This document shows positions 14,307 to 58,795 of a stretch of 64,000 nucleotides of DNA, in pieces. This DNA is from a virus. Where the stretch lies: positions 1-64,000 of IMG/VR virus record IMGVR_UViG_3300023198_001252; one strand, written 5' to 3'. How positions within the stretch are numbered: the first letter of the stretch is position 1; every line of letters starts with the position of its first letter. The notes beneath the pieces are model-generated. The model had not been told where the DNA came from, did not search any database, and saw only the letters and a list, made by a program, of their open reading frames with translations. The translations under genes were made by a program, and so were the position numbers.

Positions 14307-14771
14307 GATGGGAGATATGAAATAACTAGTGATGGAAGGGTTTTTAGTTATTGCAGTGGTGATAGAAGAGAAAGAAAGTTGGGTCTTAGAAGTAGAACGG
14401 GAAGAAATGTATATTTATTTGTTAGTTTATGGGTGGATAAAAGCCATCACTGTAACAAGTATGTACATAGATTAGTAGCTGAGGCTTTCATACCAAATCC
14501 TAATAATTACCCTCAAGTGAATCATTTGGATGGGAATAAACTTAATAATAATATAGATAATTTAGAATGGTGTACTAATAGTCAAAATCAAATACATGCA
14601 AGGAATATAGGTTTAAAACATAATATATGTAGAATAAATATGGAAATTGCTAACAGAATTAGAGAGTTATACAAGACAGGTAGATACTATCAAAGGGAAT
14701 TAGGTATTATGTTTGGAATTACACAAATGCAGATTAGTGTTATTATAAATAATAGAATGTGGAAAATATAG
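14307..14771 (+). pseudogene. HNH homing endonuclease, 5' end lost
   Basis: The frame from DGRYEITSDGRVFS (NUMOD4-like) through HRLVAEAFIPNP...VNHLDGNKLNNN..NLEWC (HNH) to a C-terminal HTH (YYQRELGIMFGITQMQISV) matches the second HNH copy at 17878. The MITE insertion has removed the start; the in-frame codons upstream reach a stop inside the element. A TTG at 14379 could still start a 130-aa protein that retains the HNH motif. Confidence 0.7.
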
Positions 14772-17877: not shown

Positions 17878-18349
17878 ATGCAATTGAAGATTATACATGA
17901 TGGAAAATATGAAATAAGTAATACAGGTAGAATATTTAGTATTATAGGAAATAGAAAAGAATTAAAGCAACGTATTAGAAGTACAAAAAATCACTATAAA
18001 TGCGTTTCTGTATACATTAAAAAAAATGTATACAATCTATATACATAGATTAGTTGCTATGGCTTTTATACCTAATCCAAATAATTATCCTCAAGTAAAC
18101 CATAAGGATGGAGATAAAAGTAATAATAATGTAAGTAACCTTGAATGGTGTAATAATCAACAAAATAGTATATATGCAAGAGATAATGGATTAAAACCTA
18201 AAGTATGTAAAATAAATATGGAAATAGCCAATAAGATTAGAGAGTTATATAAAACAGGTGAATATTCTCAAAAAGAATTAGGGAAAAGATACCGTATAAA
18301 ACAAAATACTATTAGTTTAATTGTACGCAATAAAAGATGGAAAATATAA
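17878..18349 (+). pseudogene. HNH homing endonuclease with frameshift
   Basis: The first 51 codons (MQLKIIHDGKYEISNTGRIF..., NUMOD4-like) end at a stop. The rest (HRLVAMAFIPNP, VNHKDGDKSNNN, NLEWC, then an HTH) continues in the +1 frame from an A8 run at ~18018-18025. With seven As the frames would join. It is paralogous to 14307-14771. Either an inactivating indel or a site of transcriptional slippage. Confidence 0.7.
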
Positions 18350-34031: not shown

Positions 34032-34499
34032 GTTTTTTTCTTCTTCCTCACTGACCTCATCTTGTGAGTTCATAAGTGCTTGTATCTCTGTAACAATAGT
34101 TGAAGCTTTTTTATCTTTTAATGTCCATAATTCTAAAGGATCTGTTATTTCTTTAGTAACACCTTCTTTATCCCTAAAATAAATATTTTCAATTGTTTTT
34201 ATTTTTTTAGCAAAATTGATCCTGGTAAAGTGTGTTGAGTATTTACCTGTCCATTCTTCTTCGCTCATTTTATTTCTTTGACCGGTTGCAGCATAAGCCT
34301 CTTTTGTAATTTCATTAGATTCTTTAGCAGATAAAGGCTCAATAGATACACGCATTTGTTTTTCTACTGGTCTTTTTTTGTTATCATAACATTCTAAAGT
34401 GTAAATTGTAGGCTCATCATTAATATCAAAAATGTAACTGTTTAATCCTTCAATATCCACATCTTTATTTTGCGGTTTGTTCTCTTTGTTTTCTTTCAT
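34029..34499 (-). CDS. Tail assembly chaperone (gpG-like)
   Basis: A 156-aa acidic protein (YIFDINDEPTIYTLECYDNK...ITDPLELWTLKDKKASTI...SQDEVSEEEEKN) in the G position between tail tube and tape measure. It ends at TAA right after the slippery A-AAA-AAC. Start ATG at 34499 after AAGAGG, overlapping the HNH frame upstream. Confidence 0.7.
   Translation of the reverse strand: MKENKENKPQNKDVDIEGLNSYIFDINDEPTIYTLECYDNKKRPVEKQMRVSIEPLSAKESNEITKEAYAATGQRNKMSEEEWTGKYSTHFTRINFAKKIKTIENIYFRDKEGVTKEITDPLELWTLKDKKASTIVTEIQALMNSQDEVSEEEEKN
34032..34038 (-). other. -1 programmed frameshift slippery site
   Basis: A AAA AAC in frame with GAA AAA AAC TAA. A stem (CGC-ACTCC with GGAG..GCG) can form downstream. 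The -1 frame is open into the T extension. Confidence 0.75.
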
Positions 34500-35413
34500 T
34501 TAGGCCTCTTGAAATATTTAATTGAAGTCCTTGCATACGCATGACTATTTTATTTAATTCTTTTGTAAACTTACTTATAGGAAGTAGATCTTTTATGTTA
34601 TATTGTTCTATTAAAGTATTGTCTAATTTATTTTTCTTTGTAATGATTCTTAAGTTTCTATAATTACTACAAAGTAATTGATTCTCTTTAACGCTTAAAT
34701 TATATAATGATATTGGGATTATATGATCAACAACAAAATTACATGAATTATAATCCCACCATATAAAGTCTTTAGGTGCGGTTAACATTAGATGGGATTG
34801 GAGTTTGTCCCTTGTACACCCTACCCATTTTAAAGTCTTATAACTTTTTCTTATACCTCTATACCTTGTTAGTTTATATATCCTTGCTCTAAGGTTATTC
34901 ATTATTTTAAATAGTGGATCTGTTTCTCTTTTATTCTTAGCCCATTTGTTTATAATAGGCCTTCTTTTTGTTTTCCTAATTTGCTAAGGGAAGGTTACGC
35001 CTTTTCCTATATATATAAACATGCCTACACTCTGTACAAAATTTTGTAGTTTTTAGTTTTCCTTGTACTACTTTACCACACACAACACATTTTATCTGTA
35101 AAGAGTTATAAAATTCTTCGTTAGATATAGGGCGTTTTTGTTTACGTCTATAATTTTCTTTTGTTTTGCATGTACTAGAACAAACATCACGTAACACTAC
35201 CTTATTTCTTGATACAAATTCTTTATTACAAACTATACAAAGTCTAATCTTTCTAGGCTCTTTGCATTGTTGTTTAAGTTTATGTGCATTCTTTAATTTG
35301 TATGCTTTTTGTGTTCTTTTCCTTAGCTTTTTAGTACAATCGTCACTACAAACCTTAGTTCTACTCTGCTTAGTGCTGAATATTTCTCCACAAATGGTGC
35401 ATTCCTTAGTCAT
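34465..35413 (-). pseudogene. Zn-finger HNH endonuclease, split by frameshift
   Basis: The 5' part (34976-35413, 145 aa) has three Cys4-type fingers (CTICGEIF...CSDDC, CIVCNKEF...CSSTC, CVVCGK...CTEC). The 3' part (34465-34902 and the open frame back to ~34988) has RETDPLFKIMNNLRARIYKL and the HNH core FVVDHIIPISLYNL...NLRIITKKNK. Joined, they match phage Zn-finger HNH homing enzymes. They lie in different frames, with the shift near 34980. A mobile intruder between tail tube and chaperone genes. Confidence 0.65.
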
Positions 35414-52612: not shown

Positions 52613-55165
52613 TTATCCTACACTATGCTTTATACTTTTTTGTATCATTGGTCTATGCAGTAATCTATAGCCCGATTCATCCGCACAATTAGATACTACT
52701 ATTCCGTGTTCTATACAAAATCTTTCATGTGTAGGAACTGTTAAACAATATACATCCTCATTAGATATGCTTTCTCTTTTTATCAAATGTACTAAATTTT
52801 GTTTATTTTTTTTTAATTTAACTAAGAAGAATTTATCTTCTTTTATTCTAATTGCATCGGCTCTTATCCATTTCTGACCTGTATAAAATAAATGGTCTGG
52901 TGTACATTTAATTCTCATACCATCAGAAAAATATAATTTTATAACTTTTTTATTTTCCCCTACTAGTCTACAATTTCTATATTTTTGATAACCGCTATCT
53001 GTTAATACTTTACCCTTTGTATTTACTAAATCTTTTATAGCAATTTTACCTTTAGTAGTAATTACTTTAGTGTCCCCTGTAAAGCAGTGGTCTTCTTCAT
53101 CTGTGTTTGAAACTAAAATATTATTTGCGTAATACAATCCTGCTTTTTCGGTTACAAGATTGTAAACCGTTTTTTTATCTTTTATATTTTCAATACTAGT
53201 TATACTTATATTTTTAATACTCACATTATAACATTTATCAGAATATAGTTTAAAAAAATCATCAGTGATATTATCTTTATATTCTTTAGATATATTCACA
53301 ATTCTTATCTTCTCTATAATCTCTATTATTTCATTACGTGCTACTTTTTTATTTTTTTTATTTAATAGAATATCTTTGTCTAAATAAGATGAAAATAAAA
53401 TAAAAGGAATTGTAGCAAAAACACTTAAATAATTAATATTCAACTTATAAGCCAACATACTTTTTGATTTATTCCATTGTACTTTTTCTAGTGTACTATT
53501 TATTTTTAAATCCTTTAACGCTATTAACCCTTTTCCCGGAACATGTATCTTATGATTTGGTGTACCTTCTAAACTTTCACCATTTGAAAAAGTTACTTTT
53601 ATTGTTTTACTCATTCCACTGCAAATCGATTTTTTAACTTTACATAATCCTATTGGAGTATAAACTAAATCCTTTTTTGTAACATCTTCAATATTTTTAA
53701 GTTCTTTTTCAGTTTGAACTTTGGTACCGGCAATAAAACAATTAATATCATCAGGATCTTTGTCATCTCTTCCCAATATTGGAACAGTTCTAATAAAAGC
53801 TTTACAATCTTCTGTAACAAATAATCCAGGATCCTCCATTGGGAATTTTAAAGCATCTTTAAACATTGTCCGCATTTTTTCCCATCTTCTCTTCCTACTA
53901 CCAGGAGATTTATCAGCTTTTACAAAAATATGATTAGTTCTAGTATTTCCATAACCTTCATTAAGTAATTCAGCTATACTATCATTTTTATGATCTGCGT
54001 CAAATATAGAAGAGTCTCCAGGGCCAGGATTTATTTTAATAATATTAAATGCTTTTTTAATGTGTTGCTCTATTTTTTGAATACCTCTACCTATTTCTTT
54101 AGATGTTAATCTCAATCCTTTATTTTCTAGATTTGGTTGACAGCCATACCATTCCCAAAATCTAATTAATGTACCTTTTGGAAATGTTTTTTGTGCTAAT
54201 TTTTCTATATAAGATCCATCTAATTGTTTAATTTTATATATAATCGAAATAGGAGATCCATCTGTCATAGCCCAATAGCCTACAGAAAAAGGCTTCGATT
54301 GTCCATAGTCGAAAGACCTATCTATGTACCAGGTATTAGGTATATTTATTCTAGGTAAAATGTGTACTTCTTTATCCCATACATCATCAAACATGCCACC
54401 AGCTACAATATCCCATGAACCTTCAATCCATGCTTTCCTTATATTTGGATTTTTATTTTGTTCTAAATTTATCTCATACTCAGGATCATTATCTATAAAT
54501 ATTTTATTCTCAGATCTACTACTATGTATGTAACAACGTTCACGAATCATTTCTTTTTTTGTGTTAGGGTTTTCTAACTTTTCTTCTATTACTTCACATG
54601 ATTGATTTTCCGTTATTTTAAATCTTTTTTTAACCCAAAAATGCCCTTTTCCCCATGGATTACAAGTAGATCTAATCATTTTAGGTATCTCAGGATGTGA
54701 GGATCTGCAAATAGAAAACATCATGAGATATAACTCGTCTGTTCTCCAATTAGTTAATTCTTCCCAGCCGATAAAAGGATATGCATGTCCATGATAATTC
54801 CAATAATCATCAAGCCTGTTTGCATATCTAAAATAAAGTACCTCACCTTTTGGAAAAGTCCATTTATAATCAGAAGAATTAAATATCGCTTTTGGAAAAA
54901 TTTGTTTAAACCACTTTAAACTTTTTATCTTTATATCTTCTAAATTTTTATACGTTTCTCGAAAAATTATACCACGCCATTCAGCGCCATAACCTTTCCC
55001 AACATGCTGTAAGAAATTCATTAAAAGTGCATCGGATTTTCCACCTGACCTATTCCCTTCTACTAGTACTTCAAATATAGGGCATTGTAGTAATAGGTCT
55101 TGAGCACCGGGATTAGGTTGCCAAATAACATTAATTTCTTTATTTAGTGTAGTATTATTATTCAT
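52613..55165 (-). CDS. terL: Large terminase subunit with two inteins
   Basis: 850-aa precursor. ATPase: Walker A EGNRSGGKSDA (~residues 37-47), Walker B FIGWEE, coupling motif STCNPWG. Nuclease: DRSFDYG and DADHKND. Near the C-terminus two inteins interrupt DDIN/TDEEDH/CADESGYRL, which after splicing gives the nuclease motif III region DDINTDEEDHCADE. Mature length ~505 aa. Start ATG at 55165 has no SD, but the -10 box of a good promoter ends 8 nt upstream, implying a leaderless mRNA. An in-frame GTG at 55183 overlaps that promoter. Confidence 0.9.
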   Translation of the reverse strand: MNNNTTLNKEINVIWQPNPGAQDLLLQCPIFEVLVEGNRSGGKSDALLMNFLQHVGKGYGAEWRGIIFRETYKNLEDIKIKSLKWFKQIFPKAIFNSSDYKWTFPKGEVLYFRYANRLDDYWNYHGHAYPFIGWEELTNWRTDELYLMMFSICRSSHPEIPKMIRSTCNPWGKGHFWVKKRFKITENQSCEVIEEKLENPNTKKEMIRERCYIHSSRSENKIFIDNDPEYEINLEQNKNPNIRKAWIEGSWDIVAGGMFDDVWDKEVHILPRINIPNTWYIDRSFDYGQSKPFSVGYWAMTDGSPISIIYKIKQLDGSYIEKLAQKTFPKGTLIRFWEWYGCQPNLENKGLRLTSKEIGRGIQKIEQHIKKAFNIIKINPGPGDSSIFDADHKNDSIAELLNEGYGNTRTNHIFVKADKSPGSRKRRWEKMRTMFKDALKFPMEDPGLFVTEDCKAFIRTVPILGRDDKDPDDINCFIAGTKVQTEKELKNIEDVTKKDLVYTPIGLCKVKKSICSGMSKTIKVTFSNGESLEGTPNHKIHVPGKGLIALKDLKINSTLEKVQWNKSKSMLAYKLNINYLSVFATIPFILFSSYLDKDILLNKKNKKVARNEIIEIIEKIRIVNISKEYKDNITDDFFKLYSDKCYNVSIKNISITSIENIKDKKTVYNLVTEKAGLYYANNILVSNTDEEDHCFTGDTKVITTKGKIAIKDLVNTKGKVLTDSGYQKYRNCRLVGENKKVIKLYFSDGMRIKCTPDHLFYTGQKWIRADAIRIKEDKFFLVKLKKNKQNLVHLIKRESISNEDVYCLTVPTHERFCIEHGIVVSNCADESGYRLLHRPMIQKSIKHSVG
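52688..53086 (-). other. Intein 2 in terminase (133 aa)
   Basis: Starts CFTGDTKV (block A), has CTPDHLFYT (block B, T-x-x-H), then VYCLTVPTHERFCIEHGIVV and ends VSN before Cys+1. The length leaves no room for an endonuclease domain: a mini-intein. The penultimate residue is Ser instead of His. Confidence 0.85.
53105..53740 (-). other. Intein 1 in terminase (212 aa)
   Basis: Starts CFIAGTKV, block B GTPNHKIHV, ends TVYNLVTEKAGLYYANNILV then SN before Thr+1. About 75 residues between the splicing halves have no LAGLIDADG or HNH motif and may be a decayed endonuclease. The penultimate residue is again Ser. Confidence 0.85.
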
Positions 55166-55173
55166 TGATTTGT

Positions 55174-55202
55174 AATATAACACAATATTTTATTAATTGC
55201 AA
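55174..55202 (-). promoter_or_regulatory. Terminase promoter (leaderless start)
   Basis: TTGCAA (55202-55197), 17-bp spacer, TATATT (55179-55174), 8 nt before the terminase ATG. Confidence 0.55.
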
Positions 55203-55643: not shown

Positions 55644-56835
55644 TTATACAACCTTCACCGACTGAGCAATATTAACAGCAGCGTTATAATCTCGATCAAG
55701 TTCCTCATTACATTCAGGGCATATATATTTCCTGTCACTTATTTTAATTTCCTTATTGATAAATCCACACTTATTACATGTTTTTGTAGTATTTTTAGGA
55801 TTAACATATACAGTAGCTATCCCATTCATTTTAGCTTTATACTCAATGTAACTTTGTAATTCATAATAAGTCCAATTCCTTCTAACCCATTCATTCTTTT
55901 TATCCGGCATTTTTTCAATTAAACTCAATTTTTCAAGTTTAATAATCCTGGCTTTATGCCTTAATGCAAATTTTATAATTTCACAACTTACTCGATGGTT
56001 TACTGTTTTTACAAAATTACGTTCTTTGTTTTTAAATTTTTCAATTACTTTTGTTTTCTTTTTTCGGCCTTTGCCTCCATGTGCAATTTTTATGTTTCTT
56101 TGCATTTGCTTTAACTGTTTTTGTAGACGTTGTCTAGTAATATAATAACTTTCATTATTATTCTTATGTCCTCCAATAAATGCACGTTGTAGCCCCTTAG
56201 ATAATGCACAAACTGCTAATGTAGAGATTCCAATATCTACACCTACGCTTAATGTAGAATCTAGTTTATTAGGTGTAACTGGAATATCTACACAAAGATT
56301 AAGGAACCATTTATTTTTAGTTTTATGATGTTGGATAGAAGAGCCACACGCTTTATAGTTACCTTCTATGATTTGTTCTATAATGTACTGGTTATTTGAT
56401 TTATCCCTTCCAAACTTTAAATTAAATTTAATCTTTTCTTGCCATTTTAAATGTATTTCTTTATCTATTTGTATAAAAGGTTTACCTTCTTTTGTAAATG
56501 GAAAATAAATAGGAAATCCAAGCCTTCTATAATTTCTTAAACTTCTATCACCTCTTAAAATTTCTTTTATGTCTGCTTTAAATTGCCCTTGAATATTTTG
56601 AGCAATACAAGCTCTTATAGCTGTTTGATATTTTATAGGAAATATTCTGTGCTGAACCTGAATTATATAAAGACTTTACATAATCATTTATAATTTTTTT
56701 ATCTTCTTCAACATTTTCTTTTATTTTATTTGTTAATTTTAAATTCATATATAAATCAGACATAATCCCATTCGCTAATGTATATGAATTATAAGATAAA
56801 TCATGTAATCTTTTATGGTAACTATATATATTCAT
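55644..56835 (-). pseudogene. Cas12f/TnpB-like nuclease gene with one frameshift
   Basis: The N-terminal part (56835 to ~56645, MNIYSYHKRLHDLSYNSYTL..SLYNSGSAQ) and the rest (RIFPIKYQTAIRACIAQNIQ... to 55644) lie in different frames. Total ~395 aa. Catalytic residues are intact: RuvC-I Asp (VGVDIGISTLAV), RuvC-II Glu (IIKLEKLSLI), zinc finger (CNKCG...CPEC), RuvC-III Asp (ELDRDYNAAVNIAQ). The block RNIKIAHGGKGRKKK and RNFVKTVNHRVSCEIIKFAL resembles the compact Cas12f/type V-U branch more than the IS605 remnants at 14-19 kb. The 3' part from 56105 has its own ATG. Confidence 0.7.
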
Positions 56836-57889: not shown

Positions 57890-58795
57890 ATGTTTGATTT
57901 GTTAAAATTTGAGAGTATATTACAGTTAATAGAAGCTTTCCCAACTGAATTAAGTTGTTATATCTACTTAGAATCTCTTTTATGGTATGATGGGATTGTA
58001 TGTCCTCATTGTGGATCTACTCATAAGTTTTGGAGACTCAAAGATCAAAGAATGCTTAAATGTTCAGTATGTAAAATGAGGTTTACAGTTAAAACCGGTA
58101 CTGTATTTGAAGAAACTCGTTTATCACTTCGTAAATGGTTTGTAGCTATCTTTTTAATCAGTGTACATTCTAAAGGCATTTCAAGCGTTCAATTATCAAA
58201 GGATTTAAGAATTACACAAAAAACAGCATGGTTTTTAAATCATAGAATTCGTTTCATAATGAACTCATTTAATGAAGGTGAAAAATTAACCGGTATTATC
58301 GAAGTTGATGAACATTATGCCGGTGGAGTTGAAAAGAATAAACACACAGACAAAAAGACACCCAATAATCAAGGCCGTTCTACAAAGACTAAAACTGCCG
58401 TATTTGGTATGGTTGAAAGAGCGGAAAAAGACGAAAGTGGTAATAAAATAAAAAATGCAAAAGTAATTGCTTATAAAGTTGATAATGTAAAGACTAAAAC
58501 CTTAACCAATGAAATTGAAAACAATGTAGAAGCTGGCGCAAAAGTAATGAGTGACGAATATCAAAGTTACCGAAAATTAGGCTATACTTTTAAACACCAA
58601 TATATAAGACATAACAGTGCTGAATACGTAAGAGGAAATGTACACACAAACACAATAGAGGGATTTTGGGGACTGTTTAAGAGGATGTTTATAGGTATCT
58701 ATCATTTAATGAGTAATAAGCATATAAACCGCTATTTATCAGCTTTAGCCTTTAGGTATAATATTATCATCCTTATTTTCTTATACCTTACCTAG
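57890..58795 (+). mobile_element. IS1595-family (ISXO2-like) transposase
   Basis: 301 aa. N-terminal zinc ribbon (CPHCGS...CSVCKMRFTVKTGT), then the DDE-type core: EVDEHYAGG (first Asp), VMSDEYQSY (second Asp), TNTIEGFWGLFKR (Glu or equivalent). SD AAGGAG. Upstream, GTGACA/TGTCAC (57837-57853) may be part of the left end. After FRYN the sequence departs from the family and runs into host-like repeat DNA, so the right end seems lost. The only plus-strand gene of this region. Confidence 0.8.

Follow-up and report, generated by a model that had tools for sequence, protein, structure and literature searches.

The window analyzed here is a stretch of viral DNA of 64,000 nucleotides (IMG/VR record IMGVR_UViG_3300023198_001252, positions 1 to 64,000). 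On its minus strand lies an open reading frame (ORF) for a large terminase (TerL) precursor, in which three extein segments alternate with two inteins (Table 1). Besides the listed GTG start, an in-frame ATG at 55165 represents an alternative start. The ORF was identified as TerL by its match to phrog_979 (E = 1e-29), by a match of the spliced sequence to Terminase_3 over the cut-off and by the invariance of its acidic residues. TerLs of the Yuavirus type are 44 to 46% identical to the window TerL from about residue 14 to residue 482, where the matches end. A profile search of the PDB with TerL matched no relative.

Table 1. Features of the interrupted terminase gene (window coordinates)
Feature	Position	Strand	Length	Remarks
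Large terminase (TerL) precursor ORF	52613..55183	-	856 aa	GTG start listed
N-extein	53741..55183	-		ATPase domain and most of the nuclease domain; C-terminal end ...DDKDPDDIN
Intein 1 (site 1)	53105..53740	-	212 aa	aa 482-693; Cys1 ... TPNH ... VSN; +1 Thr
Low-confidence insert of intein 1	53237..53464	-	76 aa	intein aa 93-168; pLDDT <50
Internal extein	53087..53104	-	6 aa	TDEEDH; within the conserved nuclease motif
Intein 2 (site 2)	52688..53086	-	133 aa	aa 700-832; Cys1 ... TPDH ... VSN; +1 Cys
C-extein	52613..52687	-		CADESGYRLLHRPMIQKSIKHSVG plus stop; contains the invariant Asp (D484, spliced alignment numbering)

Once its three extein parts are joined, the protein has 511 residues and reads DDIN-TDEEDH-CADE across the former insertions, a motif that is unbroken in intein-free relatives. 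We aligned the spliced sequence with 14 intein-free viral TerLs (15 rows in all), and the window motif DDIN-TDEEDH-CADESGY fell in register with DD[VI][DN]-T.AEDH-.xDExRY. D472, D473, E479, D480, H481, D484 and Y488 are invariant in this alignment, and the motif position R487 is a glycine in the window TerL. In the spliced numbering, site 1 is the N475/T476 boundary and site 2 the H481/C482 boundary, so that the invariant D484 is the third residue past site 2. With its two insertion sites marked by bars, the motif reads DD[VI][DN]|TDxEDH|xxDExRY. The interrupted motif is presumably the one known as nuclease motif III. An earlier note on this DNA, made from the sequence alone, had placed two mini-inteins of 212 and 133 residues, separated by TDEEDH, at 52688-53740, inside the terminase nuclease motif. 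These coordinates and lengths are exact, and the alignment with intein-free terminases, a check that the note had proposed, agrees with the placement and indicates that excision restores a normal TerL motif.

Both inserts carry class 1 splicing residues, namely Cys1, the TxxH of block B, a terminal Asn and a +1 Thr or Cys. An intein domain search, also proposed in the earlier note, matched both of them with Pfam Intein_splicing and NCBIfam intein_Nterm. On the whole protein, Intein_splicing gave an E value of 7e-14 and intein_Nterm one of 4e-12 over two stretches. Taken singly, the two matches to Intein_splicing had E values of 7e-8 (below the curated cut-off) and 3e-9 (above it); intein 2 additionally matched intein_Nterm above the cut-off (E = 7e-11) and the NrdJ-1 intein in a phmmer search (E = 3e-6). 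An AlphaFold2 model of intein 1, made with 13 aligned natural relatives, is a confident Hint domain with block pLDDT values mostly of 91 to 97. In the PDB it comes closest to the gp41-1 intein (E = 1e-7, TM-score of 0.84 by target length), and it also matches RecA and DnaE inteins. The Hint assignment thus draws on sequence and a structure model for intein 1 and on sequence alone for intein 2. Modeled without an alignment, the 575-residue nuclease domain with both inteins reached a pLDDT of only 32. A direct search with the raw sequences found no near relatives of either intein. Overall, both inserts are class 1 Hint inteins that are predicted to splice.

We propose the following course of splicing. 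In each intein, an N-S acyl shift at Cys1 would be followed by transfer of the ester to the +1 residue, Thr for intein 1 and Cys for intein 2, and by cyclization of the terminal Asn. Two such splices, in either order, would yield the intein-free TerL with its motif restored, and this restoration would need both. TDEEDH serves intein 1 as its C-extein and intein 2 as its N-extein, and the two splices therefore probably influence each other; we infer both the splicing and its coupling from the sequence. The earlier note had also stated that the first splice leaves a six-residue extein between two inteins. This holds only before splicing, since afterwards TDEEDH is joined to one of its flanks. 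Taken as a whole, the locus very probably holds two independent class 1 inteins in two sites of one motif, which splice to an intact TerL and have both lost their HNH endonucleases.

Because both splices would be needed for the catalytic motif, the pair could in addition act as a switch that delays packaging until conditions permit splicing. This idea is compatible with the explanation above, both inteins do interrupt the same motif, and the idea has already been put forward for cyanophage Mic1, whose TerL also has two inteins (PMC7156551). However, homing into a conserved motif explains the choice of sites as well, the window inteins having merely lost their endonucleases, and we regard such a switch as unlikely.

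Another reading is that one or both inteins are dead, with a terminase gene that is decaying as a pseudogene or a phage that is defective. Transposon genes lie nearby, R487 of the motif is replaced as described above, and the two histidines that assist splicing are missing by position from both inteins. At the block F position, intein 1 has a Gly and intein 2 a Glu, with a His one residue away; several relatives likewise lack this His. The penultimate residue is a serine in both (VSN), as it is in a solved DnaE intein, which also ends in SN. Since both assisting histidines are absent by position, Asn cyclization may be slow, and slow C-terminal cleavage of the window inteins is possible; many members of the families, however, have the same absences.

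We surveyed both sites. Site-1 inteins were found at 35 loci by a profile scan, and a pattern scan for inteins at EDH|C gave 61 loci, almost all of them terminases. A genome scan for site-1 inteins gave one MAG contig, whose length and coordinates coincide with those of a viral-contig locus already in the set. None of the 24 site-1 terminase C termini, the window included, has a penultimate His (18 Ser, 6 Thr; a further match to the regular expression, L143, was left out as a non-terminase), and the pattern HNTDxEDH, designed for site-1 inteins ending in His, found no terminase. By comparison, 33 of 39 site-2 C termini have the His, five have Ser and one has Ala; window intein 2 escaped the C-terminus pattern and is not among these 39. 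The lack of the His is thus a trait of the site-1 family and a minority state at site 2, and it is not evidence of a dead intein. The earlier remark that Ser replaces the usual His is therefore true of both inteins but does not mark an oddity at site 1, and we rejected penultimate Ser as a sign of inactivity. Moreover, the frame is open over 856 codons, and neither the invariant extein positions nor the splice-junction residues of either intein have been lost, so that we consider inactivation improbable.

In cross-splicing, Cys1 of intein 1 would act together with the terminal Asn of intein 2 to excise a block of 351 residues with TDEEDH in it, giving a nuclease-dead terminase, either as a side product or as a regulatory form. 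The sequence has every residue that this outer splice would need, with Cys1 at 53740 and Asn-Cys at 52688, and the two inteins are distant homologs. However, both Hint domains are self-contained, the model of intein 1 alone is confident, and the product would miss the invariant E479-D480-H481; we hold this outcome to be quite improbable as well.

Finally, one Hint domain could have arisen from the other in place by tandem duplication, which is extremely improbable: the 36% identity over their N-terminal 76 residues is within expectation for any two inteins, each window intein is closer to inteins of its own site in other viruses (best identities of 52% and 48%), and forcing the two together in the splicing-domain tree cost 75 log-likelihood units and was rejected by the AU test (p-AU = 6.9e-9). 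In this tree, site-1 and site-2 inteins separate (support 96/91), with window intein 1 among the site-1 inteins and window intein 2 as sister to a mini-intein of 129 residues at L114 (100/95). Independent insertion, as the earlier note had it, is thus borne out, and the sequences support separate arrivals of the two inteins from two site-specific TerL families.

The double insertion had also been called rare, and we found this to be the case, although it is not unique. The C junction could be read in 27 distinct site-1 inteins, and among these both sites are filled only in the window and in one other virus, IMGVR_UViG_3300005613_004381 (L164), that is, in 1 of the 26 other site-1 inteins. When we sampled 45 distinct TerLs by their N-exteins, regardless of inteins, site 2 was filled in one, site 1 in none and both in none. 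These small counts agree with independent filling of the two sites. In L164 the site-2 intein follows six residues past the site-1 intein, with TDVEDH as the spacer. Its inteins are full length (302 and 289 residues), unlike those of the window, and contain one out-of-frame HNH ORF apiece; at site 2, the L164 intein ends in HN and that of the window in SN. Separately, we noted additional inteins in the ATPase domain of the TerLs of L121, L129, L130, L140 and L174. Read by eye, L129 and L130 appear to have three inteins per TerL.

Nested out-of-frame ORFs are the rule among full-length relatives. Nearly all of these, at both sites, contain an ORF within the intein in another forward frame, an HNH-like one that lies in frame +2 in all but two cases and mostly starts 230 to 300 nt into the intein. 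Carriers at both sites include L012, L085, L093, L094, L112, L136, L151, L152, L157, L164, L183, L188 and L192, among others. The ORFs of three representatives matched Pfam HNH_3 above the cut-off (E = 1e-10, 1e-14 and 4e-17); the rest were recognized by an HNH-like pattern and alignment, in a set of 37 selected relatives. Across the HNH ORF, the intein frame of these 37 has no stop, where a mean of 3.05 was expected from synonymous shuffling of the HNH codons, a result that is partly by construction because a continuous frame was a condition for selecting the inteins; the third frame holds 580 stops in total. Over 226 pairs of relatives, the HNH frame is better conserved than the intein frame (mean identity of 43% versus 24%), and most change falls on the third codon positions of the HNH frame. 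A Shine-Dalgarno-like stretch precedes the HNH start in several relatives, and the HNH proteins cluster by insertion site. We infer that these HNH proteins mediate homing of the relatives' inteins.

At some site-2 loci the intein frame is broken, and the N-intein, the HNH and the C-intein are separate ORFs. Site-2 inteins that look split, with an overlapping HNH ORF, were seen at L083, L084, L086, L092, L096, L097, L116, L126 and L134, and one without an HNH at L141. Fractured genes in which endonucleases lie between the parts of split inteins were reportedly described by Dassa et al. in 2009 (cited in PMC3653736). Some site-2 loci resemble this arrangement, whereas most relatives, like the window inteins, are contiguous. 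In the cultured phages TJE1 (Tetrasphaera) and Highwayman (Acinetobacter), TerL likewise holds an HNH frame out of register; the insertion positions there were assigned by eye, without alignment against sites 1 and 2. As a side observation, a free-standing HNH gene lies directly downstream of the annotated TerL gene in Pseudomonas phage PAE1 (L215, 2265-2882) and in Sphaerotilus phage SN1 (L219, 2501-3118); both are about 44% identical to the HNH of the L012 intein.

The window inteins differ from this pattern. Pfam found no homing endonuclease domain in frame, and in the remaining gene-strand frames neither intein encloses an ORF of at least 60 residues, in line with the earlier view that neither has a recognizable endonuclease. 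In intein 1, the low-confidence insert occupies the position of the relatives' out-of-frame HNH ORF. Two candidate remnants in this insert were discarded: for a decayed HNH, similarity to HNH proteins did not exceed that of shuffled sequences in any forward frame, and an impression of LAGLIDADG was not supported by Pfam. Judged by these searches, the window inteins have lost the HNH ORF typical of their full-length relatives. With both endonucleases gone, they would be splicing-only elements for which homing by their own means is no longer possible. Other short or shortened inteins at site 2 (L103, L114, L129 and L175; L107 against L091; L118 against L085) suggest that endonucleases have been lost there repeatedly. 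We lean towards a broader reading, in which the motif is a landing site with two slots for two intein families whose site-specific HNH homing endonuclease is encoded in an overlapping frame and expressed by internal initiation; both slots would be filled in L164, and the window would represent an end stage, with neither endonuclease left and two splicing domains, six residues apart, as all that remains.

Out-of-frame endonucleases have some precedent. When we searched the literature for them in inteins, the directly relevant results were limited to the ShiLan paper and one genome announcement. The ShiLan element is a non-splicing insertion that leaves the host frame open and contains an out-of-frame HNH ORF (PMC11855218). 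It has no splicing domain, whereas the outer frame of the relatives found here is a Hint intein. The same paper cites a preprint on non-canonical actinobacteriophage inteins, and it is possible that out-of-frame HNHs in splicing-type inteins were described earlier, in a 2025 preprint on non-canonical phage inteins.

Inteins at conserved TerL motifs are also known from mycobacteriophages. In the part of Kelley et al. (2016) drawn on here, these all lie in the ATPase domain, unlike those of the window, and the ones assayed are reported to be splicing competent (PMC5050341). The TerL1-a and TerL1-b sites are only one residue apart and are described as separate sites; in contrast to the window, no protein with both filled appears in that part of the text (PMC5050341). 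Mic1 TerL is interrupted twice, by one intein in the nuclease domain, as in the window, and by another in a different domain; one of the two retains a homing endonuclease domain (PMC7156551).

With a six-residue extein shared between two inteins, the order and the coupling of splicing become directly testable, because either reaction makes use of a flank of the other. The survey of the two families accounts for the origin of such mini-inteins, and it indicates that phage inteins which appear free of endonucleases but have an odd, unconserved linker are worth checking in their other reading frames. The site-1 family, as a whole without penultimate His, offers candidates for the study of alternative help to Asn cyclization.

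Several other genes of the window deserve mention. Near the terminase are a TnpB-type C-terminal fragment with a Cas12f1-like TNB domain (55644-56105, minus strand) and an IS1595-type transposase (57890-58795, plus strand). Two free-standing HNH_3 genes on the plus strand (14379-14771, E = 1e-12; 18026-18349, E = 3e-10) show weak helix-turn-helix matches. On the minus strand, at 34976-35413 and 34465-34902, a protein with treble-clef-like zinc-finger repeats adjoins an ORF that looks HNH-like by eye; this zinc-finger protein resembles the HNH proteins of the inteins in their C-terminal part.
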